Assembly (NCBI GenBank): GCA_003168335.1
Contig: PMSM01000003.1
Coordinates: forward strand, 186,001 to 250,000
Source of the DNA: Blastocatellia bacterium
GTDB taxonomy: Bacteria; Acidobacteriota; Blastocatellia; Pyrinomonadales; Pyrinomonadaceae
Length of the DNA: 64,000 nt
Direction: 5' to 3'
The stretch's first letter is position 1. Every line of letters starts with the position of its first letter. The notes under the pieces are model-generated. The model made no database searches, had not been told where the DNA came from, and worked only from the letters and a program-made list of their open reading frames with translations. Shown here one piece after another: positions 1 through 25,100 of the stretch. Position numbers and translations under genes: made by a program.

Positions 1-1
1 A

Positions 2-7394: not shown

Positions 7395-7403
7395 TTGTTT
7401 GTC

Positions 7404-8348
7404 TCAAAACTCCGTAACTGCAATTTTGGTCAAAGCATCTACAAAGGACATGGGTTTGCGGGCGAGTATTCGCAATGTCAGCACATACAATCCCAAACGT
7501 ACGTGTAGTTGGGATGGGTATCGGTTCACGGCGATAAAGCATGCTGAACGAAAGTTCTTGATTGCTTCGCCCAGAATTACAGAGTTACAGATCGTTAGAT
7601 CCAGTAGTCCGGAAAAATCCAAAGGAATGGTCTCTATCACTTCGGGTATGGTTTTCATTCCATCCGCGAATTGCACCGCGGGCGCTGGCCTGAGGTGTCC
7701 TGGAAACGACAATTCAAGCGCAGCTCGAGTGAGACGATTCAAAGGTTTCGTTGACAAGAGATCGATGTCGCACCTTGAGTCTTCGCTCTCATCGTCCGCC
7801 GGCGAGTGGTAGAGCCGATGCGCGTCTGTGATTATTATGTTCAAATCGCTAGCGAGTTGCTCATTTGGCATGTTTAGCATCGGCGCATCGAACAATCCCG
7901 CGTCCAGCTTCGTTAACTCGCCATGAAGCGCCCGCTCTATAAGAGTTCGCCGCAGCGAAATGGTTTGCAACATGCTGGGAGCATTGCTCAAATCCTCGGG
8001 TCGAATCCTGACAAAGCGCCAGTGTGTAACCATCGTCACCACCGTGAACTTAAATAGGAGCCGGCCGAGGTCAGACAGTTGTGCGTTGCGCACGACGGTG
8101 ACTCCTAAATTCTCAGCGACGCCACAAATTCGCCGAACGGCGCGAGCCACGGGCGCATAGACAATCTCCCAGTAATAGTCGTCCGACGCTCCCCGTTCGA
8201 AACTTGTGAACTTCACATGTTTTGCGAAGCTGCCGTTAAACTCGGAGTTCAGATCGTTCAGGAAATCTTCGCGCGTGAGCGGAACCGCGATCGCGAGAGC
8301 ACAGTCGATCGGACTAACCTTAAATCCACTCTGAAACGAACGATCCAA
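7404..8348 (-). CDS. hypothetical protein, second gene of lipoprotein operon
   Basis: I prefer the TTG at 8348, preceded by AGGAAGGA with 8-base spacing, over the ATG at 8393, which has no SD and a 73-base overlap with the upstream gene; the TTG leaves a 29-base overlap. The product is ~314 residues of mixed alpha/beta character. There is no signal peptide, no membrane helix and no motif I recognise; segments such as YYWEIVYAPVARAVRRICGV and LGLYVLTLRILARKPMSFVD suggest a folded globular protein. It lies between a large lipoprotein and a two-helix membrane protein, so it may be the cytosolic part of an envelope-spanning system. Confidence 0.55.
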   Translation of the reverse strand: MDRSFQSGFKVSPIDCALAIAVPLTREDFLNDLNSEFNGSFAKHVKFTSFERGASDDYYWEIVYAPVARAVRRICGVAENLGVTVVRNAQLSDLGRLLFKFTVVTMVTHWRFVRIRPEDLSNAPSMLQTISLRRTLIERALHGELTKLDAGLFDAPMLNMPNEQLASDLNIIITDAHRLYHSPADDESEDSRCDIDLLSTKPLNRLTRAALELSFPGHLRPAPAVQFADGMKTIPEVIETIPLDFSGLLDLTICNSVILGEAIKNFRSACFIAVNRYPSQLHVRLGLYVLTLRILARKPMSFVDALTKIAVTEF

Positions 8349-11292
8349 TAGAGGGGTCCTTCCTAACGAAATGAAGGTCGCGCCGCTCGGCATTGAACTG
8401 TTGACGTATCAGTTTTATGTCAATTCCGGTTTCGCGGCTGATTCGCTTTATTTCCAGATTGATCGCGCGATTGAAAGTCAGCATGTCGAAGGTATCTCCC
8501 AGCTGGCGGATTACCTTCGTTATTGCCTCTTTGACAAGCTCTTTTATGCCCGAAATGATTTCACGAGGCGTTCCTTTTTCGAAGATGAGTTCAATCTTTG
8601 TCTTCCCGACCTCGGTGGCGTCCTGCGCCGGCACTTCGACCAGGAGAGTAGCTCGCTGTTCACCGGTCGGCAGTACCTCTATGTCGAAATCGCGAACGCT
8701 AGCTTTGGTGAAGTCAAATTTCTTGAAGCGCAACTCCTGAGGCGACGTGTCTGAAATCAAAGCCCCAATTTCTTTAGGAATCCTTTCATCGGCGGCGCGG
8801 ACCTCGCAACTCTTGACGAAAGCAGCCCCTTCGTCAGGATTAAATCCCCGCAAGTCCAGCTGCAGCGGTCCGTTCGAAGCGGATTTACGCATGAGTTGTA
8901 CGACCACATCAGTTGCGTCTTCCATCGTGTGGGCTTCTATCAAGCCGTTACTCTCATCAACGAAAAGGCGGATGGCACCGTCACTGTTGCGGGAAATAAT
9001 TATGGACCCTGAGATCAACGCACGGCTCTCTCTAATCGTCGCAATCTCAGCCTCGCTCAGTGACGATGCGGAGCGAAAACGGCCCCACCCAGGCGGCCGT
9101 AGGGTTTCCGTGCCGAACATCCTCTCCGACGCACCAGGGCTTCCGCCAAAGCGGCTCCCAGTCGGTAGGTTCAGGCCGACACTGCGACTTCGTGGTGTAA
9201 TCTCGCCAGCAGAAGCAAGAATTTTCTGTAAGTCAGAAGAGATCGCTTCTGCCGTTTCACCCTCAGAAAGCCCCGCTGTTCGGACCAGTTCGCTGACTCG
9301 TCCGGCATCTCTCGGATTAACCAGAATAGTTCCGTCTTCAGTGACGATGGGGCGGCCGATAACCGCCTCTTCGCTGACAGAAAAGTTAGTCACTTTCGCA
9401 TAGAGATTGTGACCGCCGATGGCGATTCCCATCTTGTTGCCAATGACATTTTTTGACACGACGACCACCGGCGTGTGGATCCAGCCATCAGCGTTACTTG
9501 CAATCTCGTCCGCATACCGGCCTGGGAACTTTTTGATGCCCGCTAACTGACTCAAGGTGACGTTCTTTATCCAACGCTGCTCTTCAGAATCATCCGGTAT
9601 ACCCAACGCATTTAGATTGAACGCAGGTGCAATGCGAGGTTCGTCCGGTTCAGGGTGATCGAGTGCCGTTCGGATTCCTTTTCGCAATTCGTCTTGGGGA
9701 AGGCCAGCAAGTTGTCGCCCTACTAGCGGCAGGAGTTTTCGAACAAGGGACTCTTTTTCTGCTGACGAGGCGTTTTCAACTTCGTCGGTCATTTCCCCAG
9801 TCAGCTTGGCTAAGACCGTATCAGGTTGGTTGTTGGACGTTACATTCAATGATGACTTTGCTACATCAAAAGCACTAAAGATGTGATACAGCGCATCGTA
9901 TTGGACGACGCGAGTGAGATTCGGATCGTTAAGAGAAGCAAAGTAGTTGTACGCCTGTTCTTCAGCGCTCTTAACGGTGTCCGAACGTTGGTCACCGGCC
10001 CCTTCTGGGATATAGCTGACCGGCAAAGCACCTGACCGGTGAAGGGCAAAGACATCATATTCACCCATCTTGACTTTGTAGCCCACGCCCTTTGTATTCC
10101 AGTTGTAAGTCAATTCGTCCGTGTCGAGCCTTTCCATCAATGATGGATTTTGGAAAGGCCACTTACCTGGCTTCGGGTAATGAAAGTTTTCGTACTCCGT
10201 GTCTCCGCCATTGGACCAGCCCTTTAGAATTTGGTCAGTAATGTTCAGCAAACTGCCGTATTCGGTATCAACCAGCTCAGGACTTAGAAGGATCGGTGCC
10301 CAGTCCTTGTTTCCGTCAAGGCGCCCCGCGAAGAGATGTCGGCGTTCATAGCTTTGTTCCAGCTGGCCCTTTTGTCCTTTTTGGACGGCCGCCAGCAGCG
10401 AAATAGTTTCAGCGCGAAGCGGCGGTAGCAAATCGACGGGAACTACGCGCTCGCGACCAAGTATCAAAATGCCGGATGGTTTCGAGACGGCCCCAACAAT
10501 CAGGTCGGAATCGAGTGCGAATTCACGAATCTCTGCGCGGCACGTTTGGATGTCCTTCCCTTTTGGTATCCACCACCCAACCATGCCGGGAGTATTGGTG
10601 AAGAAGACGGACGAATCCGGCCGAGCAAATAAATCTGTCATGGAGATCGTCGGACCCCCTTCGATCGGAATAAAGGTTTCTCCCAGATCGACAGTCCAGT
10701 TCTTAAGTTCAGCTGCCGTAACTTTCAAATCCAGGCCAGCGATCTCTTCCCGCCTGGAAACCGTTGGTAGCGGAAGAACATAAGATTTGTAAGATGTCGC
10801 AAAAAGAATTTGATTTAGAGAGCTGATAGCCGAAGCGATCGCATCGTCAGAGCCTTTAACGGCTAGCACCAGATCCCGTGTCCAACCATCATGTCCAACC
10901 GGCCTTTGCTGCACACGGTGATTCAACAGGATATCTTTGGTAGGGACTAAAAAATCACCCAGCGCAACGGAAGGAGGCGGCTCGGAAATAACCAAAGTAC
11001 GGCTTTGATCACGGGCATTTGATGCCGACAACGCCAATACTTGGCTATGATAAGGATATGCACTCCGGAATCCTTGCCACAGACTATCGGATGGAGTCTG
11101 TGCCGGCAGATCTCGCGCCACCAGTTCGCGAATCAGCGCTTCACGCGCAGCAGCTTTTTCGGCAGCGAGCCGGTCGCGTTCTTGGGCAAGTTTCTTCTCG
11201 TCGAGGTGAACGGCTTGATGTTTGGCACAGCTCGTTAAGCAAGGGGCAAATACTAATAAGAGCAATACCTTTACAGAAAGTGAGTGTTTCAT
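8320..11292 (-). CDS. large lipoprotein of unknown function
   Basis: The 990-residue protein starts with a lipoprotein signal (VKVLLLLVFAPCLTSCAK), with LTSC as lipobox and Cys22 as the likely lipidated residue. The start follows an SD (ATAGGAG). A short coiled-coil stretch follows (KKLAQERDRLAAEKAAAREA), then long mixed regions, and a helical C-terminus (IISGIKELVKEAITKVIRQL). No catalytic motif or known domain was found. Aromatic-rich middle segments (YENFHYPKPGKWPFQNP) suggest an extracytoplasmic fold. It heads an operon with the overlapping 7404-8348 gene and the membrane protein at 6960. Lower GC than the right part of the window fits foreign origin. Confidence 0.6.
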   Translation of the reverse strand: MKHSLSVKVLLLLVFAPCLTSCAKHQAVHLDEKKLAQERDRLAAEKAAAREALIRELVARDLPAQTPSDSLWQGFRSAYPYHSQVLALSASNARDQSRTLVISEPPPSVALGDFLVPTKDILLNHRVQQRPVGHDGWTRDLVLAVKGSDDAIASAISSLNQILFATSYKSYVLPLPTVSRREEIAGLDLKVTAAELKNWTVDLGETFIPIEGGPTISMTDLFARPDSSVFFTNTPGMVGWWIPKGKDIQTCRAEIREFALDSDLIVGAVSKPSGILILGRERVVPVDLLPPLRAETISLLAAVQKGQKGQLEQSYERRHLFAGRLDGNKDWAPILLSPELVDTEYGSLLNITDQILKGWSNGGDTEYENFHYPKPGKWPFQNPSLMERLDTDELTYNWNTKGVGYKVKMGEYDVFALHRSGALPVSYIPEGAGDQRSDTVKSAEEQAYNYFASLNDPNLTRVVQYDALYHIFSAFDVAKSSLNVTSNNQPDTVLAKLTGEMTDEVENASSAEKESLVRKLLPLVGRQLAGLPQDELRKGIRTALDHPEPDEPRIAPAFNLNALGIPDDSEEQRWIKNVTLSQLAGIKKFPGRYADEIASNADGWIHTPVVVVSKNVIGNKMGIAIGGHNLYAKVTNFSVSEEAVIGRPIVTEDGTILVNPRDAGRVSELVRTAGLSEGETAEAISSDLQKILASAGEITPRSRSVGLNLPTGSRFGGSPGASERMFGTETLRPPGWGRFRSASSLSEAEIATIRESRALISGSIIISRNSDGAIRLFVDESNGLIEAHTMEDATDVVVQLMRKSASNGPLQLDLRGFNPDEGAAFVKSCEVRAADERIPKEIGALISDTSPQELRFKKFDFTKASVRDFDIEVLPTGEQRATLLVEVPAQDATEVGKTKIELIFEKGTPREIISGIKELVKEAITKVIRQLGDTFDMLTFNRAINLEIKRISRETGIDIKLIRQQFNAERRDLHFVRKDPSIGSFVSEWI

Positions 11293-11983
11293 TGTGGGAC
11301 TCCTATCTGACAGGGTTGTGGTTTCGTAACGAGTTAATTGACGGGAAGATTATGCTTGCATATGGCTGCTGTCAATGTTTTTTGGAGGTTACTTTGACTG
11401 TGAAAGAGCTATTAGCATGTGTTTTTGCCACCACGACGGTTGTATCTTGAGCTAAGCCATGAAAGTCTAATCCGGAGTTCGCTTCACAGTGTTCTTCCTA
11501 TGAGCAAAGCCGAGGGCTGAGCAACCTAGATAGGTCTCGGCCAGACTCAATCGTTCCACGTAACTTCGACGGTGAAGAATCCTATTCAAAAAGCTCGCCA
11601 GCCGTCAGGTTTTTATCGCTACGGCAAAATAGAATGGCTACGGGGAGCGCGCAGCATTCAGATAGGGCCGGACTTCACGCTTCAGTGGAAGATGCATCGG
11701 GTTCTCTATGGACTTGCCTAACGACGGTCTTGGCTAGATGATGTTTCGCGAATCAGACGAAGCGTGCGATGCGAGCTACGAAGGACGCGGCGGCAAGTAT
11801 CAGGGCTAACGGAATTGACGTATTCGCGTTTATGAAGAAGAAGACTGTCGGTTCCCATAGTTAATGAAATCCGCACCATGGTTAGTGAAATCTCTCGCTG
11901 AGACTGCCGTGGTAATCAACCGTAGCATTTGTGTTACGTCATCTATGTTCGTCGACTCCCAAGTCAGTTTGGAGAATTAATCA
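11293..11983. other. long gap with IS-end-like repeat
   Basis: Apart from the repeat at 11838-11892 I see no clear feature. A plus-strand frame 11572-11721 (start GTG) has protein-like stretches (GFYRYGKIEWLRGA) but no ribosome-binding site; it may be a gene fragment. Confidence 0.35.
11838..11892 (+). repeat. IS-end-like repeat, copy B
   Basis: Second copy of the repeat at 5081-5135, about 90% identical and in the same orientation, beginning TGTCGGTTCCCA after AAGAAGAC. Its two internal units, TTAATGAAATCC and TTAGTGAAATCT, are better preserved than in copy A. The copies bracket 6.7 kb containing the Ntn hydrolase and the lipoprotein operon. Confidence 0.5.
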
Positions 11984-13039
11984 TTATTGAGGACAGACGG
12001 CCGCTTTTTTCGCAGCCTCACAACATTGCTGCGAAGAGCTAATCTGGTCCAATAATGAACAACTCTCGCATGTAAACTGACAGCTATTGGTAGCGCAGTC
12101 CCATACACACGAACAGACGCACGAACTGGAGCTAGACGCCGTATTTGGAGTTGGAGTCTGACGGCCCGGACTTGGTGCCTTTGAGCTAGCCATTGCTGGA
12201 CTGTCCGCTCCGCCCGGTTTTTGTGAATTTTCGTTTCGAGTACGAATAAGTTGCACAAATTCAGAGGGTGGGAGTTCATTGATTCGCCTTAATAGATCGG
12301 CACTCATAATTGATACCGGTGTCCTAACAGCTATCCAACTATCAATGCTTGGGGGGCTATACTTAAAATTAAAGTTGGTTGTATCGTCAAATCCGAAACC
12401 ATCTTCGTAACTGATAGTTCCAGCGACGTACAAAGAGCCCTTCACGCCGTCCCGAATTGCGGAGATTTCTTGAGCGTCGAATTTTCGCATCAAAACCGGA
12501 ACTCGCATCTTCAAGGTTCCGGGGAATAGTTTGACTTCGCCTGCGTCGAAATCCACGTCCGGAAAAGGCTCCAGTTTCCTGTTAGACCAGTTTGCCAAAT
12601 AAGCGCTGCCTTGCACTCTTATTCTAGTCGCGGGAACTTTGCCCAAGTTTTCAAGCGTCAATAGAATTTGGCCGCGAGCCAAGTCAGCCGTGACACTTGC
12701 GACGCCAACGTAGGCTCTGTCGCTAATTCGCAGGGTTCGCTCCATAATTTGCACCTGTTCATGCATTACCTCACGTTGGCGATTCATGACACGGCGTTGC
12801 TGCTCATAGATTATGGCTTGGGCAGCGATTACAATGAGGGCCATGCCGCTCACGAGTACGGTCAGAAGTGGCAGCCGACCTTGCCATTTTATCTTCCGTT
12901 GCAACTCGCGCTGAGTCCGTGCGAGGAAACTGCTCGGTCTAAAGTCGCTCTCATCTATGAATGGCGACTCTTTCTCCTGCTCCGAAAGACGCGCTTTATC
13001 ATTGTCAAGAGTGGGTTTTTCACTGGTTTTTTCGCTCAT
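11984..13039 (-). CDS. single-pass membrane protein with cysteine-rich C-terminal tail
   Basis: The 351-residue protein has an acidic soluble N-terminus, a membrane helix at about residues 56-77 (LPLLTVLVSGMALIVIAAQA), a short coiled coil (QQRRVMNRQREVMHEQVQIM), a beta-rich domain (residues ~108-235), a Pro/Ser-rich linker, and a last ~50 residues with ten cysteines (SSCVCSCVWDCATNSC, CESC, QQCC and AAVCPQ). With the N-terminus inside, the tail would be outside, where disulfides or a metal cluster could form. Proteins of this general layout occur in many bacteria, but I know no family with this tail. It stands alone between gaps. Confidence 0.6.
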   Translation of the reverse strand: MSEKTSEKPTLDNDKARLSEQEKESPFIDESDFRPSSFLARTQRELQRKIKWQGRLPLLTVLVSGMALIVIAAQAIIYEQQRRVMNRQREVMHEQVQIMERTLRISDRAYVGVASVTADLARGQILLTLENLGKVPATRIRVQGSAYLANWSNRKLEPFPDVDFDAGEVKLFPGTLKMRVPVLMRKFDAQEISAIRDGVKGSLYVAGTISYEDGFGFDDTTNFNFKYSPPSIDSWIAVRTPVSIMSADLLRRINELPPSEFVQLIRTRNENSQKPGGADSPAMASSKAPSPGRQTPTPNTASSSSSCVCSCVWDCATNSCQFTCESCSLLDQISSSQQCCEAAKKAAVCPQ

Positions 13040-13240
13040 GGTGTAAGGTCATGATCCGTCAGCGACACGACCATTGTATGAGCGCGGCTCGTGTGTGTCC
13101 AACGATGCTGGGTGTTAGAGTAGCTGGCGCGAAGGGATTGACCCACACGCAAGCCTCCTGGATGCAACACCCGCAGGTGACGGTTACAGCAACCTGCCGC
13201 CAACTCCCGCAATTAGCCTCATGCGCATCTGTACGAAAAG

Positions 13241-13685
13241 ATGGCACAACATAATAGGAGGGGCCAGGCATTTGAGGATTTTTATCGAATCGTATTTCAA
13301 GCGCCGCAGTTGGACTGTAAAGAGAGCCGTTGGCCACGTCCCAGCCTACGATATGTGCATCACCAAGGGACCGGCCTCCATTTACGTAGAGTGCAAGTAT
13401 GATTTAATGAGTGACCGAACAGGGAATTACGCCCTTGAGAAAGCTTCGCTCGAACATACCCAGAACCAGGTCTTGATATTCGGGACGACGGCTGAATGTT
13501 ATGCGCTTCCGATGGAAACCGCCCGAAGATTTTTCAACCGACTATCCCAAAAAGCAGACCGGCGATTTTCCCAAACAACTATTCAGCACTCGTTCCCAAG
13601 ATTGTCTTTGAGTCATCTAATCTCCAACGACTCTGAAAATCCGCCCGCTCACAAAGTTAAAAAAGGATGCCTGGAAGGTATTTAG
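13241..13685 (+). pseudogene. PD-(D/E)XK nuclease-like gene, frameshifted in a T5 run
   Basis: The ATG at 13241 opens MAQHNRRGQAFEDF. After the T5 run at 13279-13283 the sensible continuation is in the other frame: ESYFKRRSWTVKRAVGHVPA, then YDMCITKGPASIYVECKYD. Removing one T joins them into a smooth ~147-residue protein. Asp in AYD and the E-x-K in VECKYD fit the PD-(D/E)XK nuclease core found in restriction-like and recombination nucleases; NQVLIFGTTAE follows. The longer frame beginning at 13221 has an N-terminus without protein character. The gene is either broken or affected by a one-base error. Confidence 0.5.
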
Positions 13686-13748
13686 TATTTGGGTACGAAA
13701 GAGTAAATGCAGACTGGCGGGGATATGTTCAAAATGCGTAAGTAGCTT

Positions 13749-13770
13749 GGTGACAAACTTGTGACAAGAA
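13749..13770 (-). repeat. direct repeat pair, possible integrase arm site
   Basis: On the minus strand TTGTCACAAGT is followed at once by TTGTCACC, two TTGTCAC units with an 11-bp period. The pair lies 116 bases left of the tRNA-Arg fragment. Its geometry matches the pair at 15827-15847 left of the tRNA-Ala fragment. Short direct repeats near the end of a tRNA-integrated element are typical tyrosine-integrase arm-binding sites; assigning them so is an inference. Confidence 0.4.
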
Positions 13771-13885
13771 CACAGACAAACTGGAAGTAATAGGCGGTAA
13801 CAGATAGACTCGCTGGCGGCTGCAACCCGTAACAAATGTTAATAAACCGTACTACCCATAACCTGCTGGAGTGTCTGTGAACGCA

Positions 13886-13930
13886 CTACGAATCCGGGGC
13901 TCGCACGTTCGAGTCTTGCCGGGTGCACCA
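13886..13930 (+). pseudogene. 3' fragment of tRNA-Arg(ACG), attachment-site scar
   Basis: From the anticodon loop CTACGAA (13886-13892, anticodon ACG) the sequence follows a tRNA to its end: 3' anticodon stem TCCGG, variable GGCTC, T-stem GCACG, loop TTCGAGT, CTTGC (one mismatch), acceptor strand CGGGTGC, discriminator A, and CCA. CGGGTGCACCA is the usual tRNA-Arg end. No matching 5' half (GCACCCG) lies upstream, so this is not a functional gene. Such fragments are left at the far junction when an element integrates at the 3' end of a tRNA gene. Confidence 0.6.
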
Positions 13931-14447
13931 TTCGTCCTAAGGAAATGGCTGATGAGACGCGAGTTACGGCCGAGGCGATCCCGTTCTTAAATCTCTATCT
14001 TACCCGCCCACTTTATGAGCATACTCTATGACACTCTATTAAGACGGAGCGCAGCCGAGCGCGCGAGATCGAATCAATAGAAGACGGGCGTTAGATAATG
14101 CCGATTTTGTTGGAGACCCAACCGCGATGACGCGATGCTCTACCACAGCGGTGGAGCGGCTGCTCGACAACATCAATCACAATTATCAGATGACCGTCCG
14201 CTTCGGTGCGATTCTCACGCCAGGAGCCCCCACCGGGTCTGTGAGATTCGTGCATCCCCGGAAATCTGGGCAGGTGTCCCCTACTTCGTGCGCCGCATAG
14301 AGTTTAACGAGTAGTGTTTCCATTCGTGTTGCGAACGCGCAACAAGGGCGAATCAGAGGTATCATGCCAGCGGTTCGACTCGCATTCGTGAAGTGCAAGA
14401 GCTGTAGATTTGTACCACGACCTGGGGTTGGCGTCGCCTAAGACAAT

Positions 14448-15692
14448 ATGTGCGCTAAGTGGAATTCAGATTACGATGTCGGGCTACTGATAACCGGCCT
14501 TGAAACACTCAGAGTAACCGACACGGCTGGGCAAGCGGCCTTTTCTGGTTATGAATCCGAGGACTATATGAGTGTTCTTCAATCGGCCGTCAGGTTCTCA
14601 GCAAGGCTTCCTGAAACCGAGAGGAGGCGAATAGTCAGAACCGCAGTTTTTGCAGCATTGCGATCTGGAACTCTTACGTCTAAAAGAGTGATCGCTGAGA
14701 TATCGAAACAGGAGAAGGGTTTTCTCGGGTTGCAGCTTAAGCGCTTCGTCTTGGCGACGAGTCTCTCGATCAGCTATTTCAACTCAATCGGCTCTAGGCA
14801 GACGCATAATGCGAGAATCACTTTCAGTCTTTCCCTACCAAAGGCATTTGATCGCTCATCTCTGTTAAAGCGAGCACTCCGTCAAGGGATAACGGAGCTT
14901 CCTCGGGACTACACTCAGGTGAGAATCTCGTTGAGGGGACGATCAGAGTTTGAGGCAGCAGATCTCGCTTTGGACGCTTTCGATCTGATTCGTGGTACCT
15001 GGAACCTTGCCCTCAACCATACTCTCATCGGTCGCATATCGAGCGGAAGATTGCACAGCCGACTGGAACCTGTAAATCAGCTTCTGCCGGGACCGATACA
15101 TACTTTGCACGAGCCGAACGGGAAACCGGCCACTGATACTTTTTGGTATGAGCCAAGCGTTCTGCCGGGGCCTTTCAAGGCCATCGACATTCAAAGTAAG
15201 TGGAAGCGAATTCAAAGACTCGAAGGTGGAATCCGCAAGAAACTGGCGAGTTCATCCTACCGGGCTGACATCGAAGATGGTATTCGCGCGTACACGAGGG
15301 CGCTAGATGCTACCGACTTTAATGCAGCATTTCTGAATCTCTGGCGGTTGCTTGAGAGACTTACACATTCTTTATCCGATCCGTACAAAGTGGCGAGAAA
15401 GCGCGCTCTCTTTCTGATGAATGGGCGGGACCGAGATTTTCATGACCAAGTTCTGAAACACTTGACGGACTATCGAAATCGCGCCGTGCATGCAGGCGAG
15501 GAAACAGACGAGATTGAGACGTTGGTATTCCAACTCAAATTTTATGTTGAGCGGTTGTTATTCTTCCATATTTACAATAACTTTCCTGGTATGAGGGAAG
15601 CTGCGGGCTTTCTAGATCTCCCGACGGTTACCGGCGATTTGAGAAAGAAAATTAAGATGATGGAAAAGGCAATACGCTTCCACAAAGCGTAG
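14448..15692 (+). CDS. Apea-like HEPN domain protein
   Basis: The 414-residue protein has an uncharacterised N-terminal two thirds and a C-terminal helical domain (about residues 285-390) with FLNLWRLLERLTHSLSD and DYRNRAVHAGEETDEIETLV. The R-N-R-A-V-H stretch (about 344-349) is the R-x4-6-H motif of HEPN RNases, in the form seen in Apea-like HEPN proteins, which often occur in defence or stress modules. No nucleotidyltransferase (MNT) partner is next to it. It sits alone between the tRNA-Arg and tRNA-Ala scars, so it may be cargo of a small integrated element. RNase activity is unproven. Confidence 0.6.
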   Translation: MCAKWNSDYDVGLLITGLETLRVTDTAGQAAFSGYESEDYMSVLQSAVRFSARLPETERRRIVRTAVFAALRSGTLTSKRVIAEISKQEKGFLGLQLKRFVLATSLSISYFNSIGSRQTHNARITFSLSLPKAFDRSSLLKRALRQGITELPRDYTQVRISLRGRSEFEAADLALDAFDLIRGTWNLALNHTLIGRISSGRLHSRLEPVNQLLPGPIHTLHEPNGKPATDTFWYEPSVLPGPFKAIDIQSKWKRIQRLEGGIRKKLASSSYRADIEDGIRAYTRALDATDFNAAFLNLWRLLERLTHSLSDPYKVARKRALFLMNGRDRDFHDQVLKHLTDYRNRAVHAGEETDEIETLVFQLKFYVERLLFFHIYNNFPGMREAAGFLDLPTVTGDLRKKIKMMEKAIRFHKA

Positions 15693-15826
15693 CGCCGATC
15701 CGGTCTGTTCTATATTCAGTGCAAAGAGTTTTTGAGTACGCCGGTGGACCAAATGTTAGAGGCTGGAGTTGTGGGACGCGCATACGCTAACGTGATGGAC
15801 TTTGATAAACCAATTTGCGTTTTATC

Positions 15827-15847
15827 TTGTGGCAGGTTTGTGGCAGG
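15827..15847 (+). repeat. direct repeat pair TTGTGGCAGG, possible integrase arm site
   Basis: Two exact TTGTGGCAGG units at 15827-15836 and 15838-15847 have an 11-bp period, 355 bases left of the tRNA-Ala fragment. TTTGTGGCA-type repeats are common near the ends of tyrosine-integrase elements (from memory). The period matches the pair at 13749-13770. Confidence 0.45.
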
Positions 15848-16202
15848 AATAGATAGCACCCGCCTGTAACTGAATGGAAGTAGATGTCAAAGGATGGGAA
15901 AATGCCTTGATTTTGCTCGTGGCTGCATCTCGATAAAAATCAATAGTTCGGCAATTTGAGTTGGCCCATTTCGGCAACCCGAAGTGGCCCACGCTAGACG
16001 GCGATTGTCTCGGTACTCTGGAACGCGGGGAAATTGTGACAGATGAGACGACAAGATTCGTTGGCGTGAGGTTGACGTGACTGTAGGGAAATGAGTGGGT
16101 ACGTATAGGAATCTATGGAGTGCGAACATCTTTCGGACGGCTGCTTCTGTTGAATTTAGCGTAACGTATGGGAACGTGTAGTAGTCAGTAGAACCGACTA
16201 AA

Positions 16203-16252
16203 TCGCGTTCGCAATGCGGAGGCCCGGGGTTCGAATCCCCGCTGCTCCACCA
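16203..16252 (+). pseudogene. 3' fragment of tRNA-Ala(CGC), probable island boundary (att site)
   Basis: Anticodon stem TCGCG/TGCGG with loop TTCGCAA (anticodon CGC), variable AGGCC, perfect T-arm CGGGG-TTCGAAT-CCCCG, acceptor strand CTGCTCC, discriminator A and CCA are all present. The T at position 70 fits the G3-U70 identity pair of tRNA-Ala. The expected 5' acceptor strand (GGGGCAG or GGAGCAG) is absent upstream, so the gene is truncated. The change from accessory to ordinary genes occurs exactly here, as expected for the distal junction of an element integrated in a tRNA-Ala gene lying left of the window. Confidence 0.65.
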
Positions 16253-16338: not shown

Positions 16339-17820
16339 CTACTGAATCAAGTTCGCTGACCCGCCATCGTCATCCGGTGGAATAGAGTCACTGGGGTCCT
16401 GTTGAAGCGAGTCAACCCAGTCCAGATCGAATTCATCATCCACCTGTGCGCCGCGCGCGATGCGTTGCTGCCTTTCTTCCCACCTGCGGTTGAACTCTTT
16501 GTCGAACTCCTCGCGACGGCGGTTTTCGGCTTTCCATTCCTCGCGCGTGAGAAAGTCTGAGAACGCAAAGTCGTTGTCCATGTGCGAGCCGTCCAGATGC
16601 CAAAAACCCGGACCCATAGTCGGATCGTTGGCCATCATCATGCATGTATAGCAGTCCTCGTCGATGATCATCTCGCGCTTGCTTAGCGCAAGAGGCAGAC
16701 GTCTTCGCTCGCTCTCGATAATGTTTGCCGGCGTCCTACCGCTGAAGTCCGGCTGTGGATTTTCCAGCCAGTTGGCTTTGATCTTTTCGAGCCGAGAGAG
16801 TTCTACATCGATTTGGTCGCGATCGTAGTCGGCGTCGCTGGGTCTTGGAATGGACATCTGCGGCGACGAGTCACCGCTACCAGAGCGCTGAAAAGTCAGC
16901 GCACTCCAAAGCAAATGCCGCACGAGGTCGTAGTAAACAACGCACTCGTGCGTGCCAAAGCCGGCGAACCGGTACGCAAAAGATTGCTCAGCCAGGCACG
17001 GTGGCCCCTCGCCTTGTAAACTCCACTGTAACGCGCGCGTGTGGAGGTCAAAATCGATGAACTCTTGCTTGGCGAGGAGGACGTCTCTGGGTGATTGCCC
17101 TCGCAGATCGTCACGCGTTGTCAGTAGCCAACGGGCGTGTATCGCTGAGATCTCGTTTGCAACCGCTTCCTCAATCGCCTCGTCTGCGCTGGCCGGCTGA
17201 TCCTCTGAATTAGCAGGTAGGGACTCGGCAACAGCTTCACAGGTGAGCGAGGGGTCTGAGTCACCGACTGGCTTTGGTGCGTTGTCAGCTGCGCCTCTGC
17301 GACAAACTGAAGTTTGTCGTACATTGGTGACGATAAACTCAAGCAACGCTCGTCCATACAGAACATTGCGAGCATCGAGTGGTAAGCAGGCTGTGCGTTC
17401 CTTTATGCGGCGTTGACGAGACACCTCATACTCAATAATAGAATTGAAAAACCCCCATTCTTTCGGTACGCGGTACAAGACTGAGACGTCGGTTGATTTT
17501 GTGCCATCGTGATAGAGCAATTGTCCTTCTGGTTGTGGCTGGGAATAGGAAGACTCGGCGGCCACGATTCGCGCCAACATGTCGATTACTACTACGCCTG
17601 CGTCCCAGGGCTCTGTATCAATCTCTGCACGAGATCGAAACGATTTGAAAACTTCGAATTGATCGTCCGGCCTCACGTAGCGTGCTAAAGCCGCTTCAAG
17701 CTCCGAGATGGTTTCAGGTTCAGCCGACAGTGCCGCGACGCAGGCATCAGCGATAGAACCGTGAACGGTGCCGACCAGAGTTTGCCCGGCGTCTACGAGG
17801 TTAAGCTTGACTTCGCTCAT
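16339..17820 (-). CDS. hypothetical protein with duplicated WL-xx-DLxGxxP segment
   Basis: The 493-residue soluble protein starts at an ATG with GGAGG ten bases upstream. Two related segments are visible, ARWLLTTRDDLRGQSPRDVL (about residues 234-253) and ANWLENPQPDFSGRTPANII (about 349-368), each of the form W-L-x-D-(L/F)-x-G-x-(S/T)-P. This resembles the C-terminal 'WL-P-L-G-TP' element of MbcA/ParS-type toxin-binding proteins, but no toxin gene is adjacent. The C-terminal 100 residues are very acidic and rich in Arg/Glu. A ~20-bp palindrome lies in the coding sequence (17300-17319). Function unknown. Confidence 0.55.
   Translation of the reverse strand: MSEVKLNLVDAGQTLVGTVHGSIADACVAALSAEPETISELEAALARYVRPDDQFEVFKSFRSRAEIDTEPWDAGVVVIDMLARIVAAESSYSQPQPEGQLLYHDGTKSTDVSVLYRVPKEWGFFNSIIEYEVSRQRRIKERTACLPLDARNVLYGRALLEFIVTNVRQTSVCRRGAADNAPKPVGDSDPSLTCEAVAESLPANSEDQPASADEAIEEAVANEISAIHARWLLTTRDDLRGQSPRDVLLAKQEFIDFDLHTRALQWSLQGEGPPCLAEQSFAYRFAGFGTHECVVYYDLVRHLLWSALTFQRSGSGDSSPQMSIPRPSDADYDRDQIDVELSRLEKIKANWLENPQPDFSGRTPANIIESERRRLPLALSKREMIIDEDCYTCMMMANDPTMGPGFWHLDGSHMDNDFAFSDFLTREEWKAENRRREEFDKEFNRRWEERQQRIARGAQVDDEFDLDWVDSLQQDPSDSIPPDDDGGSANLIQ
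17300..17319 (-). repeat. palindromic repeat inside coding sequence
   Basis: A 9-bp inverted repeat with a two-base spacer, CGACAAACT-GA-AGTTTGTCG, interrupts the hypothetical gene in frame (encoding RQTSVCR). It sits in a low-complexity linker (about residues 165-230) and looks like a small mobile palindrome absorbed by the gene. Confidence 0.45.
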
Positions 17821-18155
17821 TGGGATACGGCCTCCATGTTGGCGCTACATGTCGCGCGCCCCTGTTCAGCGCGCAAAGACGTTCGTGTCTCAAAAACAGG
17901 GGGCATAATGCTCGCGAATGCCAAGGCTTACAAGCTCATAAAACTTGCAAGGCCCGAGAGGGCAACCGCAAAGAGTATTACTAGCGTTGATAACGAATTA
18001 ATAGGTGAACGCGGTGGGAGAAACCGACGGCGGGTATTGGATGTTGGGTGTCGAAAAAGATTCGCGCTTTAAGCGAATAGCAGATTGGTTCGCGGCTGCG
18101 GCGCTCAGGCTCGGGACATCCGCGCTGCCGCCGCGGAGTTAGGTCCTACCCTGAT
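17821..18155. other. intergenic, nothing recognised
   Basis: No gene, hairpin or repeat of note was seen between the start of the hypothetical gene and the end of the discoidin-like gene. Confidence 0.35.
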
Positions 18156-18827
18156 TTACTTCTTCGCGACGACGTCGATTTCGCTATAGAACGTGTTGCC
18201 AAATTCATCCGCGGTTTCAGTCACAAAACAATCGAACAGCAGGTAGCGCAACTTGCCCAAACTTCCGCGCGCATCAGTAATGCTCACGCCAAACTGTCCG
18301 CCATCATTACCGTCTTTCGACCGGGTGTCGACAACCGTAATCAGCTTCCAGCCAACCGTGGCCAGATCTATATTGGTTTTAGGGGCGGGCCTGAAGTTCG
18401 GATCGGCGCCATCGCTGGCCCAGAGCCGGTACACCTGCGGCCCGCGAGTGTTCGGGTGCCATGAATAAGTATTGACCTGAGCAATATCGATCGCGCTGCC
18501 CAGATCCATTTGGAAGCGTCCACCGCCAGTGCCGGCGTTCCAAAAGAAGTTTGCCGCCGGCTGATCTTCTTCGGTGGGCAGCGCGCCGTCGGTGAGCGCA
18601 CTGAGGTCCGCGCCATTCCCATCAACCTCACCTTCAACCAGCAACAGGGTCGCTCTGGCAGCGGCGTCATCCTTTGCCGGCGAGGGCACGTTCTTGAACT
18701 TGAAAGCGCTGGTGGCCGTAGCGTTGGAGTTGTGATCGGATGCGACCTTTACCTGGGCGTGCGCTACGCACGCGAGGGTCAACAATGCCGGAATCATGAA
18801 TACAATCTGCCTCGTCTTGAGTGCCAC
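18156..18827 (-). CDS. secreted discoidin (F5/8 type C)-like protein
   Basis: I choose the GTG at 18827, preceded by GGAGG with a five-base spacer, over the ATG at 18839 that overlaps this SD. The product has a signal peptide (QIVFMIPALLTLACVAHA) and a mature part of ~195 residues. GRFQMDLGSAIDIAQVNTYS and VYRLWASDGADPNF fit the first strands of a discoidin/galactose-binding-like fold, which binds carbohydrates or proteins outside the cell. It is followed by an aldo/keto reductase on the opposite side of a short gap. Ligand unknown. Confidence 0.6.
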   Translation of the reverse strand: MALKTRQIVFMIPALLTLACVAHAQVKVASDHNSNATATSAFKFKNVPSPAKDDAAARATLLLVEGEVDGNGADLSALTDGALPTEEDQPAANFFWNAGTGGGRFQMDLGSAIDIAQVNTYSWHPNTRGPQVYRLWASDGADPNFRPAPKTNIDLATVGWKLITVVDTRSKDGNDGGQFGVSITDARGSLGKLRYLLFDCFVTETADEFGNTFYSEIDVVAKK

Positions 18828-18956
18828 CTGAACCTCCATCAGTTAACGGAACTCCATCTCCCGGGAGAGAGGTGGGGAGAGGGATTGAGAAATGAACGCA
18901 CTCCAACTACGACCCTCTTCCCCAGCCCTTCTCCCAGAGGGAGAAGGGAGCACAGA

Positions 18957-19931
18957 TCAGTTGCTCCATTTCGCCGGCAGCCGGTCCCAGCGATGCTCGG
19001 TCAATTCAGCCAGCAGGTCGTCAGAGAGCCGTCCGATGTCACTCATCGCGATATTGGAATCGACGTGCGAGAGCTTGCGCATGCCGGGGATGATCGTGCT
19101 GACCACTGGATGGCCGAGAATGAAGCGCAGAGCCATCTCAGGCATGCTGATTCCAGCCCGCTCCGCAATCGGTTTGAGAGTGTCGGCGCGCGCGACACTT
19201 GGAATTAGATTTTCAGCGACGAAGTAAGTGTTGCGGAAGTCGCCCTCCGGCCACCTGCTGTCTTTAGTGAGTGTGCCTGTCAAAGAGCCTTCGTCAAACG
19301 GCACGCGCGCGATTACGGCCACGTCCATCTCAACGCACGCCGGGAAAAGATCATCTTCCGGGTTTTGATCGAAGATGTTGTAGATCACCTGCACGGAATC
19401 AATCAGGCCGCTGCGCACGGTGCGCACACCATTCCAGGGCTCCCAGCGATTGATGCTAAGGCCGACAGCTTTGATTAATCCTTCGCTGCGAAGCTCGTCC
19501 ATCTTTTTCGCCCACCGATCATCTTCGACCCACGAATCCTCCCAGACGTGAAACTGGATCAAATCGAAGTTGTCCAGACCGGCGTTGTCCAGACTGCTGC
19601 GAACGTACTGGTCTATGTGTTCAGGAGGGAAGCAATCATCAAGAGAAGAACCGCGGCGGCTGGGCCACTGGAGATTCTTTGGCGGGATCTTGGTAGCGGT
19701 GTAAAGTCTTTTGTCTTTATTAGCGCGGATGATCTGGCCGAGCAGGCGCTCGCTTCGCCCCTCGCCGTAGGCCCAGGCCGTATCGAAAAAATTGCATCCC
19801 AAATCGACGGCGCGCTGAAGGGACTTGAGAGACTCTTGATCATCCGAGCCGGTCCAACCTCCCATGCCCCACATGCCATAGCCTATTTCGCTGACTTTCC
19901 AGTTTGTGCGTCCAAAGCGTCGATAGTTCAT
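18957..19931 (-). CDS. aldo/keto reductase
   Basis: Start at the ATG at 19931 (MNYRRFGRTNWKVSEIGYGM), the classical N-terminus of the family; the longer frame enters an intergenic repeat. The 324-residue product is a full-length AKR with a (beta/alpha)8 barrel. Asp in FFDTAWAYG, Tyr in the same motif, Lys in TATKI and His in IQFHVWE form the catalytic set. Near the C-terminus, LGHPVVSTIIPGMRKLSHVD is the usual cofactor-binding region. NADPH-dependent reduction of a carbonyl compound is expected; the substrate is unknown. Confidence 0.85.
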   Translation of the reverse strand: MNYRRFGRTNWKVSEIGYGMWGMGGWTGSDDQESLKSLQRAVDLGCNFFDTAWAYGEGRSERLLGQIIRANKDKRLYTATKIPPKNLQWPSRRGSSLDDCFPPEHIDQYVRSSLDNAGLDNFDLIQFHVWEDSWVEDDRWAKKMDELRSEGLIKAVGLSINRWEPWNGVRTVRSGLIDSVQVIYNIFDQNPEDDLFPACVEMDVAVIARVPFDEGSLTGTLTKDSRWPEGDFRNTYFVAENLIPSVARADTLKPIAERAGISMPEMALRFILGHPVVSTIIPGMRKLSHVDSNIAMSDIGRLSDDLLAELTEHRWDRLPAKWSN

Positions 19932-19964
19932 TGGTGACTCGCTTACTTCTGTTTCTTCGAGTAG

Positions 19965-20192
19965 AGGTAGTACCACCCGGCGGTGGTTGGCGGCTTCGCC
20001 GCAGCACATCGCGGAAAGCCTTTGGCTTTCCGGCAGAGCAAGTTATTTTCCCGTTGAGGCTTCGCCTCGATAGCGGACGAGCCATAGCCTCTCACATCTG
20101 GTGTGTTCAGCGGTAAGCCAGAGGCTTACCGCGATGTGCTGCGGCAAAGCCGCAAGGCTCAACCCACCCGCTCACGCGGGTGGTACTGACCT
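19965..20192. repeat. nested inverted-repeat element (MITE-like), copy 1
   Basis: Two arms (about 19965-20020 and 20122-20192) are inverted copies; the best 29 bases (19992-20020 vs 20122-20150) differ at only two positions and share GCCGCAGCACATCGCGG. Smaller palindromes lie inside: GGAAAGCCTTTGGCTTTCC and GAGGCTTCGCCTC. It fills the gap between the GH38 and reductase genes. The order of sub-palindromes is the same as at 51438-51596. It could fold as a long RNA hairpin or be a non-autonomous mobile element. Confidence 0.6.
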
Positions 20193-20218
20193 CATTAGGG
20201 CGATAAGCCCGGCTAACC

Positions 20219-23200
20219 CTAATTCCGTTCCAGCGTGTCATAGAGCGGCTGCACCGGTCTGATCACCGTCGGCTCATCCCCAACAGTGATCGCCAGAATG
20301 CGGATCCTTTCGTTATCAGGCAAGACCAGTGTGCGCGCGCCGGCCGGCAAGTCGATCACGTAAGCAAAAAGGTAAGAGTAAGCATAAGGCTCAGCGCTGC
20401 CATCCGCAGCGTTGCGATGCGAAGCAAACCACGCCACGTCGGCCCGCTTGATAAACCCCGGTCGCAAACCCAACATCTCTCCATAAACATTAGTGCGGGT
20501 TCGCGGAGGCGTGGCTCCGGCCGGAGGCGTAGGGGCGCCGGGTCGTGGCGCGATCTGCTCTTCGGTTACTTTCCAGATGCGGTCATCCCACTGTCCAATG
20601 AAGCCGGTCCAATCCTGGATCGTCAGCTCAAATGATTTTTCACCGGCGCGAAACGTGGCTTTCTGATCTCCGTTGGCCGCGGCCGCCAGCAGATAAACTC
20701 GATTGTACTTACCCGGCGGCAAAGTGATCGTCTGACCATGTGCTAAGACCGCCTTGGGCTTGCCAACATCAGCCGGCGCCAACTTGAAACGAATGCCGGC
20801 AAAACTTATTTCGCGCGGCAACATTTCTGCCGGCAGAGCTTTTCCCTGCGTAGCACCCTGATTGTTTGGGGCCCAATCAAAGCTGCCGTCGGCGGGCCGG
20901 TTGCGGCGCGAAGCAACCGACATTTCGTAATCCAAATTCACCGGTTGCGATTGCGTCACAGGCGCCTTCGTGTTCGGCGCAGCGAGTTTGAGGGCAAACG
21001 TTCGTGGTTGATAAGCGCCAAATGAAGTTACCAGCGCGCCACCTTCGATCTTTGCCGGGCCGACGGGCTGTTCCTGTCCATTGACTTCGCGGGCTGAGAC
21101 CGCAACGCTGGCAAAATTGAGACGAACATTCTCGATCGGCTTACCGTCCGTCTCAACCAAACGCACGATCACTTCATCGGTTAGTTCAGCTTTCTTCAGT
21201 GCCAGCACGCGCACTCGGTCGTTCTTAATTGTTAAGAGCGAGAAACTCTTGCCTAACGCGCCTGAATGTTTCGAGCTTTCAAAAGCAATTAGGGGTTGAT
21301 TCAAACGGTAAGCTTGCCAGTCAGTTCTTCCGGCGCGCCAATCATTGTCGTGGCCGGCAAGACCGAAAACGATGTCGTGTCGACCCAGATCCTGAGTTCC
21401 CTGATCGGCATAACCGCCACGAGTTCCCGGCGTGCGGATCAGAGTCAGCCGCAGCGTCTTGTCGTCGGGTTTATCCGATGCGTTCTTGCAATCGGTAAGT
21501 ATCGTCGCTCCGTACGAACCACTCTGGTCAGTCAAATCGATCCATTGATGAGAAGCGACTTCGAATTGTCTTTCTTCAGCGTTGGGTCTTTGCACTGTGC
21601 CAATGTCCCAGTTGTAAGTGGCCAGATTGTTCGCTGCGGAGAGTGGAAATGTAGCTTTCAGATTTGCCTCTTTGGTTTTCCAGTCAATCGCATTCCGGAA
21701 TTCAACGCGATTGCCGGCATCACCGGCCGACAGACTGATCGTCTGCACGAACTTTGAATCTTCGGTGTCGCGCGTGACTTCGATGGCCACCCGCGCCGGC
21801 CCGTTTTCAACGACGCGAATCTTGCTGACCCCGCCAACGAACGTGCGCGGCGCCCGCTGCTCGTCTTCGAAATCCATGTTCCATGCCGGCCACTGCCGTG
21901 GGTTATCGGTCGATATCGCCAGACGAATGGGAGCGGACAAGAGCTCGCGTTTGATCTTCTTATCGAAGATTCCGGATACATCTCCATTCCGATCGATCGT
22001 CACGCGATAACGATCGTTCTCAAGTGAAGAATCGCTGGCCTTCATCTCCGTGGAATTAGAAGTCGCCAGGTAGTCATCGTGCTCACGGCCAGGATCAAGG
22101 GCCTCGACGTTGTAGACGGCGAACCCAACCGAAGGGACGTTGGCCACGAAGATCACCTTGCCGTTGCTAAGTTGCGCTGGCACTGCTCTGCCATCTGGTC
22201 CAAACACACGCACGGCTTTCGGCGTACCGGCCGGGAAGGTAACCGCAGCTTCAACAATATCCTCGCGATTAATATTGAGCGGGTTGTAAACGACGATGGC
22301 GGTTCCTTTTGTGTTCGTGTCCAGACTCGACGCCACCCCGGTAGTCGCGCTGGTGAGCACCCCCGCAAATTGATTCAGCGCGATCACATCGTCGTTCCAC
22401 GCAAACTCGAACGCTTTCGGCGTCGCCGTGCCCGGAAGCAGATCGTGAAACTGTCCGCCCATTACCAGCGTCCACGCATTGTTTAGACGTTCAAGCGGAT
22501 AAGGACGAGCGCCGAGCCATTCAGCCGCGACCGAAGCCTTTTCCGCGGCGTCAGCCAACAACTCGTTCTTGCGTATCCAACGTTTTTGATAGGCCTGAGA
22601 AGTAAGCGACCCGGCTGAGTGATTTATCAGCTCGAGGTCGCCTTTATAGCGAGGCAATCGATCGGTGGCGCAGCAGTTCGCGATGTCCTGAAACATCTGA
22701 TCGGCTTTGGACCAGACAACTTTGATCGGGCCATCGCCAACCTGGACCAGCGGACCAGATGGCGTCGTGCTCTGGGGCCCGAACTGAAACAGCGGCGGCA
22801 GCGATGTCTTGCTCTTTGAAGTAATCGCTTCCATCAGACGGACCGAGCTTTCGTTTGGAGAGCCGCCTACGTCACCGGTGCCGACGTAATGATAGTCCGC
22901 AAAGATTCCTGTCAAATTGCCGTTCGTCTGAATTCGCTGTGTCCAGTCTTCCTGTCCTCTCGATCGGGCTTGATTCTGTTGTGCGCTCAAGGTTGGATCA
23001 GGGCCGGGAGGAGGTGGTGGAGTCTTGCTGATGTCGTACGTCACCTGGCTGCCATAACCGAGCGGATTCAAAGCGGCGATGATGGTCGTGCCATCCGGCC
23101 CTTCCCAGATTCCTACATTGAACGGAATGCCGACCGGAGTTTTTTCCGGCGAATCGGGCCCACCCACATGCGGCGCGGGCTGCCATCCGGACGAAAGCTT

Positions 23201-23899
23201 CTGCGTCGAAAAACCCTTGATGCCCGAATGCGCCAGGATGCTGGGCAGCGACGCGGGAAAACCGAAACAGTCGGGCAGCATGTATTCGTCGCTGGCCATT
23301 CCGAATTCTTTGCGAAACCAATTATTGCCGTAGAGGATTTGGCGAATGATCGATTCGGCGTTGGGAGAGTTGACGTCGCCTTCTTCCATTGAAGAGCCCG
23401 CGGGAAACCAGCGCCCGGCAGCTACGTACTGTTTCAGCCGCTCAAAGTCCGACGGGTAATACTCCTTCATAAGACGATACCGGTTCGCACCGGTGAAATT
23501 GAAAATGTAGTGTGGATATTTTTCGAAGAGCGCAAAGTTGTTGCGCATGGTCTTGGTGAGGTACTCAGAAATCACCTGCGGATACTCCCAGCGCCATTCG
23601 GTATCAAGATGAGCGTACCCGACGACATACAGAGTTGGTTCTTTCGCGAGGTTCGGGCTGGCCGCCTTGCCGGGTTGCTTCTTCGCTCCAGGTTTCGTTG
23701 CTTTCTGTCCGGACGTATTGTTGCGCGAGGCTGGTTGGGTTATGAACGGCTTTGGCGTGGTATCAGTCCGAGGGATCTGCGACATCGCGGAATGCGCGAA
23801 GCCGATCAGCATCAGCGACACGATGGCCATTACGGCGGTCGAGGCCGTAGCCCGACCGTAAGGGAGGTCTCGAATAGATGGAATCATTCGGATGTTCAT
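20219..23899 (-). CDS. secreted GH38-family alpha-mannosidase
   Basis: The 1226-residue protein has a hydrophobic leader (about residues 20-40) and a low-complexity linker before the catalytic domain. AHLDTEWRWEYP (residues 96-107) supplies the zinc ligands His97 and Asp99, and LPDCFGFPASLP holds Asp210, the expected nucleophile. The rest covers the GH38 middle helical and large C-terminal beta domains (for example RYRVTIDRNGDVSGIFDKK). It probably trims alpha-mannosides outside the cytoplasm. The first residues include LPYGRA, encoded by a copy of the GCCCGACCGTAAGGGAGG repeat, so the true start could be later. Upstream lies a divergent lectin-like gene. Confidence 0.8.
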   Translation of the reverse strand: MNIRMIPSIRDLPYGRATASTAVMAIVSLMLIGFAHSAMSQIPRTDTTPKPFITQPASRNNTSGQKATKPGAKKQPGKAASPNLAKEPTLYVVGYAHLDTEWRWEYPQVISEYLTKTMRNNFALFEKYPHYIFNFTGANRYRLMKEYYPSDFERLKQYVAAGRWFPAGSSMEEGDVNSPNAESIIRQILYGNNWFRKEFGMASDEYMLPDCFGFPASLPSILAHSGIKGFSTQKLSSGWQPAPHVGGPDSPEKTPVGIPFNVGIWEGPDGTTIIAALNPLGYGSQVTYDISKTPPPPPGPDPTLSAQQNQARSRGQEDWTQRIQTNGNLTGIFADYHYVGTGDVGGSPNESSVRLMEAITSKSKTSLPPLFQFGPQSTTPSGPLVQVGDGPIKVVWSKADQMFQDIANCCATDRLPRYKGDLELINHSAGSLTSQAYQKRWIRKNELLADAAEKASVAAEWLGARPYPLERLNNAWTLVMGGQFHDLLPGTATPKAFEFAWNDDVIALNQFAGVLTSATTGVASSLDTNTKGTAIVVYNPLNINREDIVEAAVTFPAGTPKAVRVFGPDGRAVPAQLSNGKVIFVANVPSVGFAVYNVEALDPGREHDDYLATSNSTEMKASDSSLENDRYRVTIDRNGDVSGIFDKKIKRELLSAPIRLAISTDNPRQWPAWNMDFEDEQRAPRTFVGGVSKIRVVENGPARVAIEVTRDTEDSKFVQTISLSAGDAGNRVEFRNAIDWKTKEANLKATFPLSAANNLATYNWDIGTVQRPNAEERQFEVASHQWIDLTDQSGSYGATILTDCKNASDKPDDKTLRLTLIRTPGTRGGYADQGTQDLGRHDIVFGLAGHDNDWRAGRTDWQAYRLNQPLIAFESSKHSGALGKSFSLLTIKNDRVRVLALKKAELTDEVIVRLVETDGKPIENVRLNFASVAVSAREVNGQEQPVGPAKIEGGALVTSFGAYQPRTFALKLAAPNTKAPVTQSQPVNLDYEMSVASRRNRPADGSFDWAPNNQGATQGKALPAEMLPREISFAGIRFKLAPADVGKPKAVLAHGQTITLPPGKYNRVYLLAAAANGDQKATFRAGEKSFELTIQDWTGFIGQWDDRIWKVTEEQIAPRPGAPTPPAGATPPRTRTNVYGEMLGLRPGFIKRADVAWFASHRNAADGSAEPYAYSYLFAYVIDLPAGARTLVLPDNERIRILAITVGDEPTVIRPVQPLYDTLERN

Positions 23900-24907: not shown

Positions 24908-24921
24908 ATGGCACAGAGATG

Positions 24922-25030: not shown

Positions 25031-25100
25031 GTCCGTGCCACCGGTAGGAAACTTACCCGAACGGCCTCGCATCAGAAATGACAGGCCGCCACCCAACAAC

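Follow-up and report, generated by a model that had tools for sequence, protein, structure and literature searches.

A tRNA-Ala(CGC) 3' half in a soil acidobacterium is the displaced gene tail at the far end of 52.8 kb of probable mobile DNA

Insertion of mobile DNA into a tRNA gene is well known. In the available text of the Islander study (PMC4383910), the integration site is centred on the anticodon for 2083 of 3919 islands, and the filters require an integrase gene. The islands at ssrA in Dehalococcoides, as far as the available text of PMC3146451 goes, lie in tandem at one RNA gene and are closed by repeats of its 3' end, and 15 of them have no integration module and were suggested to be cis-mobilizable. 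The insertion described here is of this familiar kind, and its ends are clear. The window, the whole stretch of 64,000 nucleotides that was analysed, corresponds to C7:186001-250000 (contig C7) of a 5.16-Mb genome, G000. With a probability of about 0.92, one composite element of ~52.8 kb was inserted by a tyrosine integrase into the anticodon loop of tRNA-Ala(CGC), and a tRNA fragment in the window is its attR.

The fragment reads CGCGTTCGCAATGCGGAGGCCCGGGGTTCGAATCCCCGCTGCTCCACCA. It contains the anticodon loop TTCGCAA, a perfect T-stem (CGGGG/CCCCG), the acceptor strand with T70, and CCA, as a preliminary description had recognised in calling it a tRNA-Ala(CGC) 3' half without a 5' half, with a perfect T-arm and U70; the start base given there, 16203, already lies beyond the homology, and the half begins one base later. 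ARAGORN called no tRNA in the whole window. When 601 bp around the fragment were compared with the 5.16-Mb genome, one non-self match was obtained (92% over 52 bp, E 2.1e-14), which falls in a tRNA-Ala(CGC) at C7:149330-149406 that is complete according to ARAGORN. It is on the same strand as the fragment, 52,795 bp left of it, and as a query against its own genome it gave only one further match among those listed, 78% identical, on C9. In a pattern scan of 120 kb, both tRNA-Ala copies agreed with the half at all 45 of its fixed positions; the runner-up, a tRNA-Arg fragment, agreed at 27. Re-joining the flanks in silico produced a complete tRNA-Ala(cgc) by ARAGORN, and re-joining the element ends produced no tRNA. 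The preliminary description had predicted an element to the left of the fragment and an intact tRNA-Ala(CGC) past the left edge of the window, and had proposed an upstream search for a tyrosine integrase; 52.8 kb to the left, we found both the gene and an integrase adjoining it. Its estimate of at least 16 kb in one integrated region grew to 52.8 kb, and was refined in that the region is composite and holds a second tRNA fragment. The coordinates of these features are collected in Table 1.

Table 1. Features of the element and its right flank; positions are those of the window unless a contig is named.
Feature	Position	Strand	Remarks
Right part of element	1..16203	.	left part, with integrase and relaxase, outside the window
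End of 819-aa NACHT-type ATPase gene	1..703	+	gene start at C7:184244
Right end of tRNA-Lys/Arg-type element	13750..13884	+	arm-like repeat at 13747-13768
tRNA-Arg(ACG) 3' half, remnant attachment site of other element type	13885..13930	+	43/46 identical to the half of the intact gene at C13:33.5 kb
414-aa ORF between both tRNA fragments	14448..15692	+	relatives in 2/80 genomes, own included
Right copy of 19-bp end repeat	16061..16079	+	18/19 identical to C7:149465-149483
Displaced tRNA-Ala(CGC) 3' half, attR	16204..16252	+	partner intact gene outside the window
Right flank	16339..23899	-	host-like G+C; 493 aa, 227 aa, aldo/keto reductase, GH38 mannosidase
First genes conserved downstream of tRNA-Ala(CGC) in relatives	24140..26456	+	255 aa and 424 aa
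Tyrosine integrase	C7:149413-150516 (L002 1556-2659)	-	PF00589, E 7.9e-31
MobA/VirD2-like relaxase (marginal)	C7:151204-153237		PF03432, 25.6 bits against a cut-off of 24.6

Repeats of 19 bp lie near both ends of the element, the left copy (TTGGCGTCAGGTTGACGTG) within the 3' end of the integrase frame and the right copy (TTGGCGTGAGGTTGACGTG) shortly before the fragment. They form the best local match between the region starting 60 bp past the tRNA and the region ending 60 bp before the fragment. The score of this match, 16.5, compares with a maximum of 12.5 in 152 mismatched left/right end pairs of other islands, and of 11.5 in 869 windows of the island studied here. Since none of the 152 mismatched pairs scored as high, the two element ends belong together. 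The repeat positions (+59 to +77 and -143 to -125) agree with those in G014 (+55/-144), in the first unit of G060 (+44/-151) and in G045 (+50/-145). Among 13 tRNA/fragment pairs given this test, those of G000, G014 and the first G060 unit outscored every one of the 152 null pairs, that of G045 was equalled by 2/152, and that of G077, a weak case, by 6/152; the remaining eight (G001, G005, G020, the second unit of G060, G090, G012, and the tRNA-Arg pairs of G000 and G049) were negative. Such a pattern of matched, similarly placed repeats is what integrase arm sites would show, and the 19-bp repeats are probably such sites.

Comparison of the two 3' halves bears on the history of the site. The fragment and the rebuilt half of the intact gene differ at 4/49 positions, two of which are a paired change in the T-stem, and neither equals GGTCAGGGGTTCGATCCCCCT, the 3' half common to six congeners. 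Over 29 bases with ≤3 mismatches, the type carried by the fragment was absent from the other 79 genomes; another source for this C:G-type half was sought with the same limits and discarded, the 29-base pattern having matched the window alone in 80 genomes. Over 80 bases, the intact tRNA-Ala(CGC) shows no difference from one in a genome of another genus (G066). Because each integration swaps the 3' half, the simplest reading is that there was more than one round of integration at tRNA-Ala(CGC), the alternative being change after integration as the source of the 4/49 differences.

The integrase gene ends 6 bases past the intact tRNA and points toward it. Rightward of the relaxase follow an SMC-type ATPase with a CTD3 partner, as in ABC-three-component systems, a 1592-aa helicase-nuclease, an ArdC-like gene, a 1923-aa RHS-repeat protein, and the NACHT ATPase that runs into the window. 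PADLOC matches in the element were to PDC-S37 (1858 bits), LmuB (the SMC-type ATPase, 105 bits) and PDC-S71 (498 bits). Several cargo genes are candidates for anti-phage defence (Lamassu/ABC-three-component-like, PDC-S37, and PDC-S71 with NACHT). A 379-aa gene (window 5434-6573) and a 329/990-aa gene pair (7404-8393 and 8320-11292) had no Pfam and no PADLOC match, and are candidates for new defence genes. For the 414-aa protein, a structure model from a two-row alignment was discarded (mean pLDDT 37.8).

Neither conjugation or mating-pore families nor phage structural or packaging families of Pfam were matched by the 28 island ORFs scanned, a set that comprised all predicted island ORFs except three (85, 647 and 68 aa) and was accompanied by a relative of the 647-aa one. 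The 647-aa ORF lies at C7:168604-170547, and its relative, with TPR and response-regulator domains, at 10771-12699 of L116 (G001:C175), directly past the Lys-type element end in that genome. Because a relaxase match is joined by no recognised conjugation family, the element is most likely an integrative and mobilizable element, or the remnant of one, that would transfer via helper machinery.

A second tRNA fragment, the tRNA-Arg(ACG) 3' half, stands at the end of another element type. At the intact tRNA-Arg(ACG) on C13, a 7.8-kb unit also closes with such a fragment. Window positions 13750-13932 matched G053:C235, G053:C145 and G093:C253 at 84, 80 and 79% over 183 bp, and shorter matches to this end were obtained in G053:C257 (84%, 153 bp) and G001:C175 (83%, 163 bp). 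At the matching ends of G053, G093 and G001, the tRNA half has the loop CTCTTAA, from which we read it as tRNA-Lys(CUU). The C13 unit and G049 have in common only the last part of this end, with the Arg half. Thus one type of element end is joined to two different tRNA halves. Two partial integrases, one next to the tRNA-Arg unit of G049 and the other next to a tRNA-Lys unit of G093, pair with 100/100 support over less than half of the alignment columns. No left arm of the Lys/Arg-type element was found in C7:90-270 kb, so the window holds a remnant of it; the island is composite, and the Lys/Arg-type unit is no longer whole.

To the right of the fragment the DNA has native composition, but is not ancestral at this place. 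Taken in 2.5-kb steps, the G+C content was 0.47-0.59 inside the island (0.47-0.51 over the final 25 kb leading up to the fragment), compared with 0.55-0.58 beyond its ends. A switch in gene content at 16.2 kb had been noted in the preliminary description; at this point there is a clear step in G+C (~0.50 to 0.56), but the first gene conserved at the site comes only at 24140. The four genes that precede it were absent downstream of the tRNA in the stretches of relatives searched, most of which were chosen for carrying the 424-aa gene; in these stretches the 424-aa gene was present in 15 relatives, and the 255-aa gene preceding it in 16. The one exception was G014:C12, which has a relative of the 493-aa gene at a distance from that genome's tRNA-Ala, and in G005 an aldo/keto reductase 66% identical to ours lies 12.6 kb away on the other side of the tRNA. 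Among 40 genomes, the only long DNA match to the 493-aa gene (window 16339-17820) was that in G014:C12, 53% identical as protein. Within the same ORF lies a dispersed repeat of ~55 bp (16859-16914), with six more matches in its own genome (C1, two in C7, two in C9, and C14) and others in relatives. The 424-aa gene is downstream on the contig and strand of the tRNA in G005, G012, G014, G015, G020, G040, G060, G066 and G073; in G049 it lies 168 kb downstream on the same strand, and in G017 it follows the 5' half of the tRNA. In G015, of another genus and with no fragment among the matches listed, the 255-aa gene lies ~0.6 kb downstream of a complete tRNA-Ala(CGC); the flank with the 493-aa gene is missing there. 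The flank order is not kept in G001, G065, G077 and G089, which have the 424-aa gene on the tRNA's contig in another arrangement. An AlaX-like gene (tRNA_SAD and DHHA1; L003 17936-19246) lies <1 kb before tRNA-Ala(CGC), as in at least 14/80 genomes; it is an editing-type gene adjoining its tRNA.

We searched 80 genomes of the family Pyrinomonadaceae with the intact tRNA, the 424-aa right-flank gene and the left-flank AlaX-like gene. Fragments matching from query position 28-33 to the 3' end, without a 5' half, were present in at least 23 of the 80 genomes, with the sequence inspected for 18 of the 23, and the reverse case, a 5' half without a 3' half, in at least two (G017 and G055). An intact gene and a fragment share a contig in at least nine genomes. 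Each of these nine has the fragment downstream of the gene and on its strand, 3.0 to 52.8 kb away; a fragment in G012 (40/47) is not counted among these pairs, and two of the bins (G007 and G046) may share a contig, because matches fall at identical coordinates in both (e.g., 7974-8047 and 18851-18898). One tRNA gene is thus a repeated landing site across the family, and in the literature searched we found no description of this tRNA-Ala(CGC) site. Two irregular cases were also seen. In L068 (G017:C290, 2987-3561), the native tRNA-Ala(CGC) is broken after ..GCGTTCG and followed by what we read as a small HNH-like ORF, with a divergent complete tRNA-Ala(CGC) past it at 3487-3561; this may be a very small replacement cassette that uses the same position in the anticodon. 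At G060:C13:40286-40365, a degenerate tRNA-Ala 5' half (85% over 79 bases) comes before the second fragment of G060.

An integrase profile built from G000, G060 and G006, in which our integrase is 40-41% identical to the other two rows, found 13 loci, seven of them in Pyrinomonadaceae or Acidobacteria. Among the best nine of the 13, an intact tRNA-Ala(CGC) adjoins five, its 3' fragment two and tRNA-Val(GAC) one, and one has neither; since L075 (G006:C252) and L076 (G060:C13) are rows of the query profile, the independent cases are three intact genes and two fragments. Locus L077 is that of G045. Among fourteen more distant integrase loci, tRNA-Met was the neighbour of four and tRNA-Ser of one, another tRNA lay within ~0.7 kb of a further four, and five showed none. 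L082, on a contig assigned to Verrucomicrobia, combines a Pyrinomonadaceae-like tRNA-Ala half with a piece of an integrase, by misbinning or transfer. A tree of 21 integrases placed eight rows in one group with 93/97 support, all but one of them of the tRNA-Ala type, and left the integrases of G000 and G077 outside it on an unresolved fork.

Ten islands between tRNA and fragment were compared, these being the nine same-contig pairs and that of G012. An integrase follows the tRNA in three (G000, G060 and G077). Inside the other seven (G001, G005, G012, G014, G020, G045 and G090) nothing matched the integrase profile or PF00239, and PF00589 was absent from the islands of G001, G005, G014 and G020 in a whole-genome search and from those of G012 (3/3 ORFs), G045 (3/4) and G090 (2/2) in an ORF scan. 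Their cargo is varied: a DrmD-like helicase comes first in G001 and a BTAD regulator in G005, and there are Tc-toxin-like genes in G014, HD-CE/HSP90-like genes in G020, AAA/NYN in G090, NurA/HerA/methyltransferase in G012, and an acetyltransferase, a subtilase and GGDEF-EAL in G045. The 14 ends of these seven islands were compared with the left ends of integrase-bearing elements, with 200 windows of the same island as the null. Four ends did better than every one of the 200 windows (G001 right, G005 left, G014 left, G045 right), the G001 right end with 22/22 bases of L082, a reference that has a partial integrase frame only; G014 right was equalled once and G090 right seven times. The other eight of the 14 ends were negative, as were both ends of our own element and of G077. 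The shared ends fit mobilisation in trans, and plain loss of the integrase also fits. Tentatively, and with odds somewhat below even, the tRNA-Ala(CGC) locus might be a docking bay for integrase-less cassettes (among them the DrmD-like helicase, HD-CE/HSP90-like, HerA-NurA-methyltransferase and Tc-toxin-like ones), which retain no more than a tRNA 3' half and an integrase family's arm sites and are moved in trans, with a sister integrase group caught switching its target between tRNA-Lys(CUU) and tRNA-Arg(ACG). If so, the cassettes would be moved by the integrases of other elements at the same site.

For the element itself, we propose that a circular form would have brought its own tRNA 3' half, and that the tyrosine integrase would have inserted the circle with a crossover in the anticodon loop of the tRNA-Ala(CGC) gene, rebuilding a working tRNA at the left end and moving the resident 3' half to the right end. 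The integrase probably binds the matched 19-bp sites near both ends. Any mobility would use the transfer machinery of a helper. The last 2.3 kb of the element come after the right end of another element type, on which the tRNA-Arg(ACG) 3' half persists. Past the rebuilt tRNA stand a hairpin and a T-run, as in relatives, and the element may bring a terminator along with the tRNA half. Against this proposal, our integrase is not firmly within the tRNA-Ala clade of the tree, and the ends of the element are unlike any end of the other integrase-bearing relatives in the shared-end comparison. Further points against it are the marginal relaxase match, the position of the left end repeat within the integrase frame, and the 4/49 differences between the halves, which call for a previous replacement at the site or for later change. 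Before DLRH, our integrase and that of G077 carry Arg, and G060 and G006, the remaining rows of the profile, carry His. The activity of our integrase is thus uncertain.

A different history would be accretion, in which at least two elements are stacked at the tRNA: the one with the integrase would stop short of the fragment, and the DNA from there to the fragment would be a unit of its own or a passenger lacking an integrase. The Lys/Arg-type end 2.3 kb before the fragment points that way, as do relatives in which units are stacked, namely G060 with two fragments and G045, where a passenger and then a fragment precede a unit with an integrase. However, no further tRNA-Ala fragment was found between 149 and 202 kb, the 19-bp repeat ties the outermost ends directly, and the Lys/Arg-type unit, with no left arm in C7:90-270 kb, is no longer whole, so that accretion to the exclusion of a single outer element is improbable. 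An integrated phage or phage satellite, rather than an element linked to conjugation, would equally have a tyrosine integrase in a tRNA gene, which is common to both kinds; the relaxase match and the lack of any phage structural family of Pfam among the 28 ORFs argue against it and make it very improbable.

Fragments of tRNA genes also occur without islands, and the half might in that case be a stray duplication or decay product with no element involved. The integrase adjoining the partner gene, the matched end repeats, the G+C step and the like arrangement in relatives all speak against this, and the integrase and end repeats rule it out for practical purposes, making it the least credible explanation. 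We therefore retain the single, composite element inserted into tRNA-Ala(CGC).

What lifts the case above routine is that both ends are proven, that a second fragment comes with a switched tRNA half, and that integrase-less relatives have matching end sites. In a soil phylum that has received little study, the ends of a large island are placed with single-base precision, and more islands should be findable downstream of tRNA-Ala(CGC) in this family. Those without an integrase would be missed by finders that require one, and the end sites they share allow a direct test of mobilisation in trans.

The comparison with known systems can be drawn as far as the available texts of the cited studies describe them. 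Like Islander tRNA-gene islands (PMC4383910), the element has a regenerated tRNA and a displaced fragment at its ends, an integrase inside and an anticodon-centred site, and nothing basic differs; because the filters described there test for an integrase, the integrase-less islands of relatives at tRNA-Ala(CGC) would be passed over. It resembles integrative and mobilizable elements (reviewed in PMC5704250) in combining an integrase and a relaxase with no recognised transfer machinery, and differs in that its relaxase match is marginal, that much of its cargo is candidate defence, and that it is known from sequence. With the defence hotspots in P2-like phages and P4-like satellites of E. coli (PMC9122126) it shares variable anti-phage cargo in mobile elements, but here no phage gene family was matched and a relaxase is present. 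Dehalococcoides (PMC3146451) likewise has islands that lie in tandem or lack an integrase at a single RNA gene, but there a serine recombinase acts at the tmRNA gene, in contrast to the tyrosine integrase and the tRNA-Ala anticodon loop found here.
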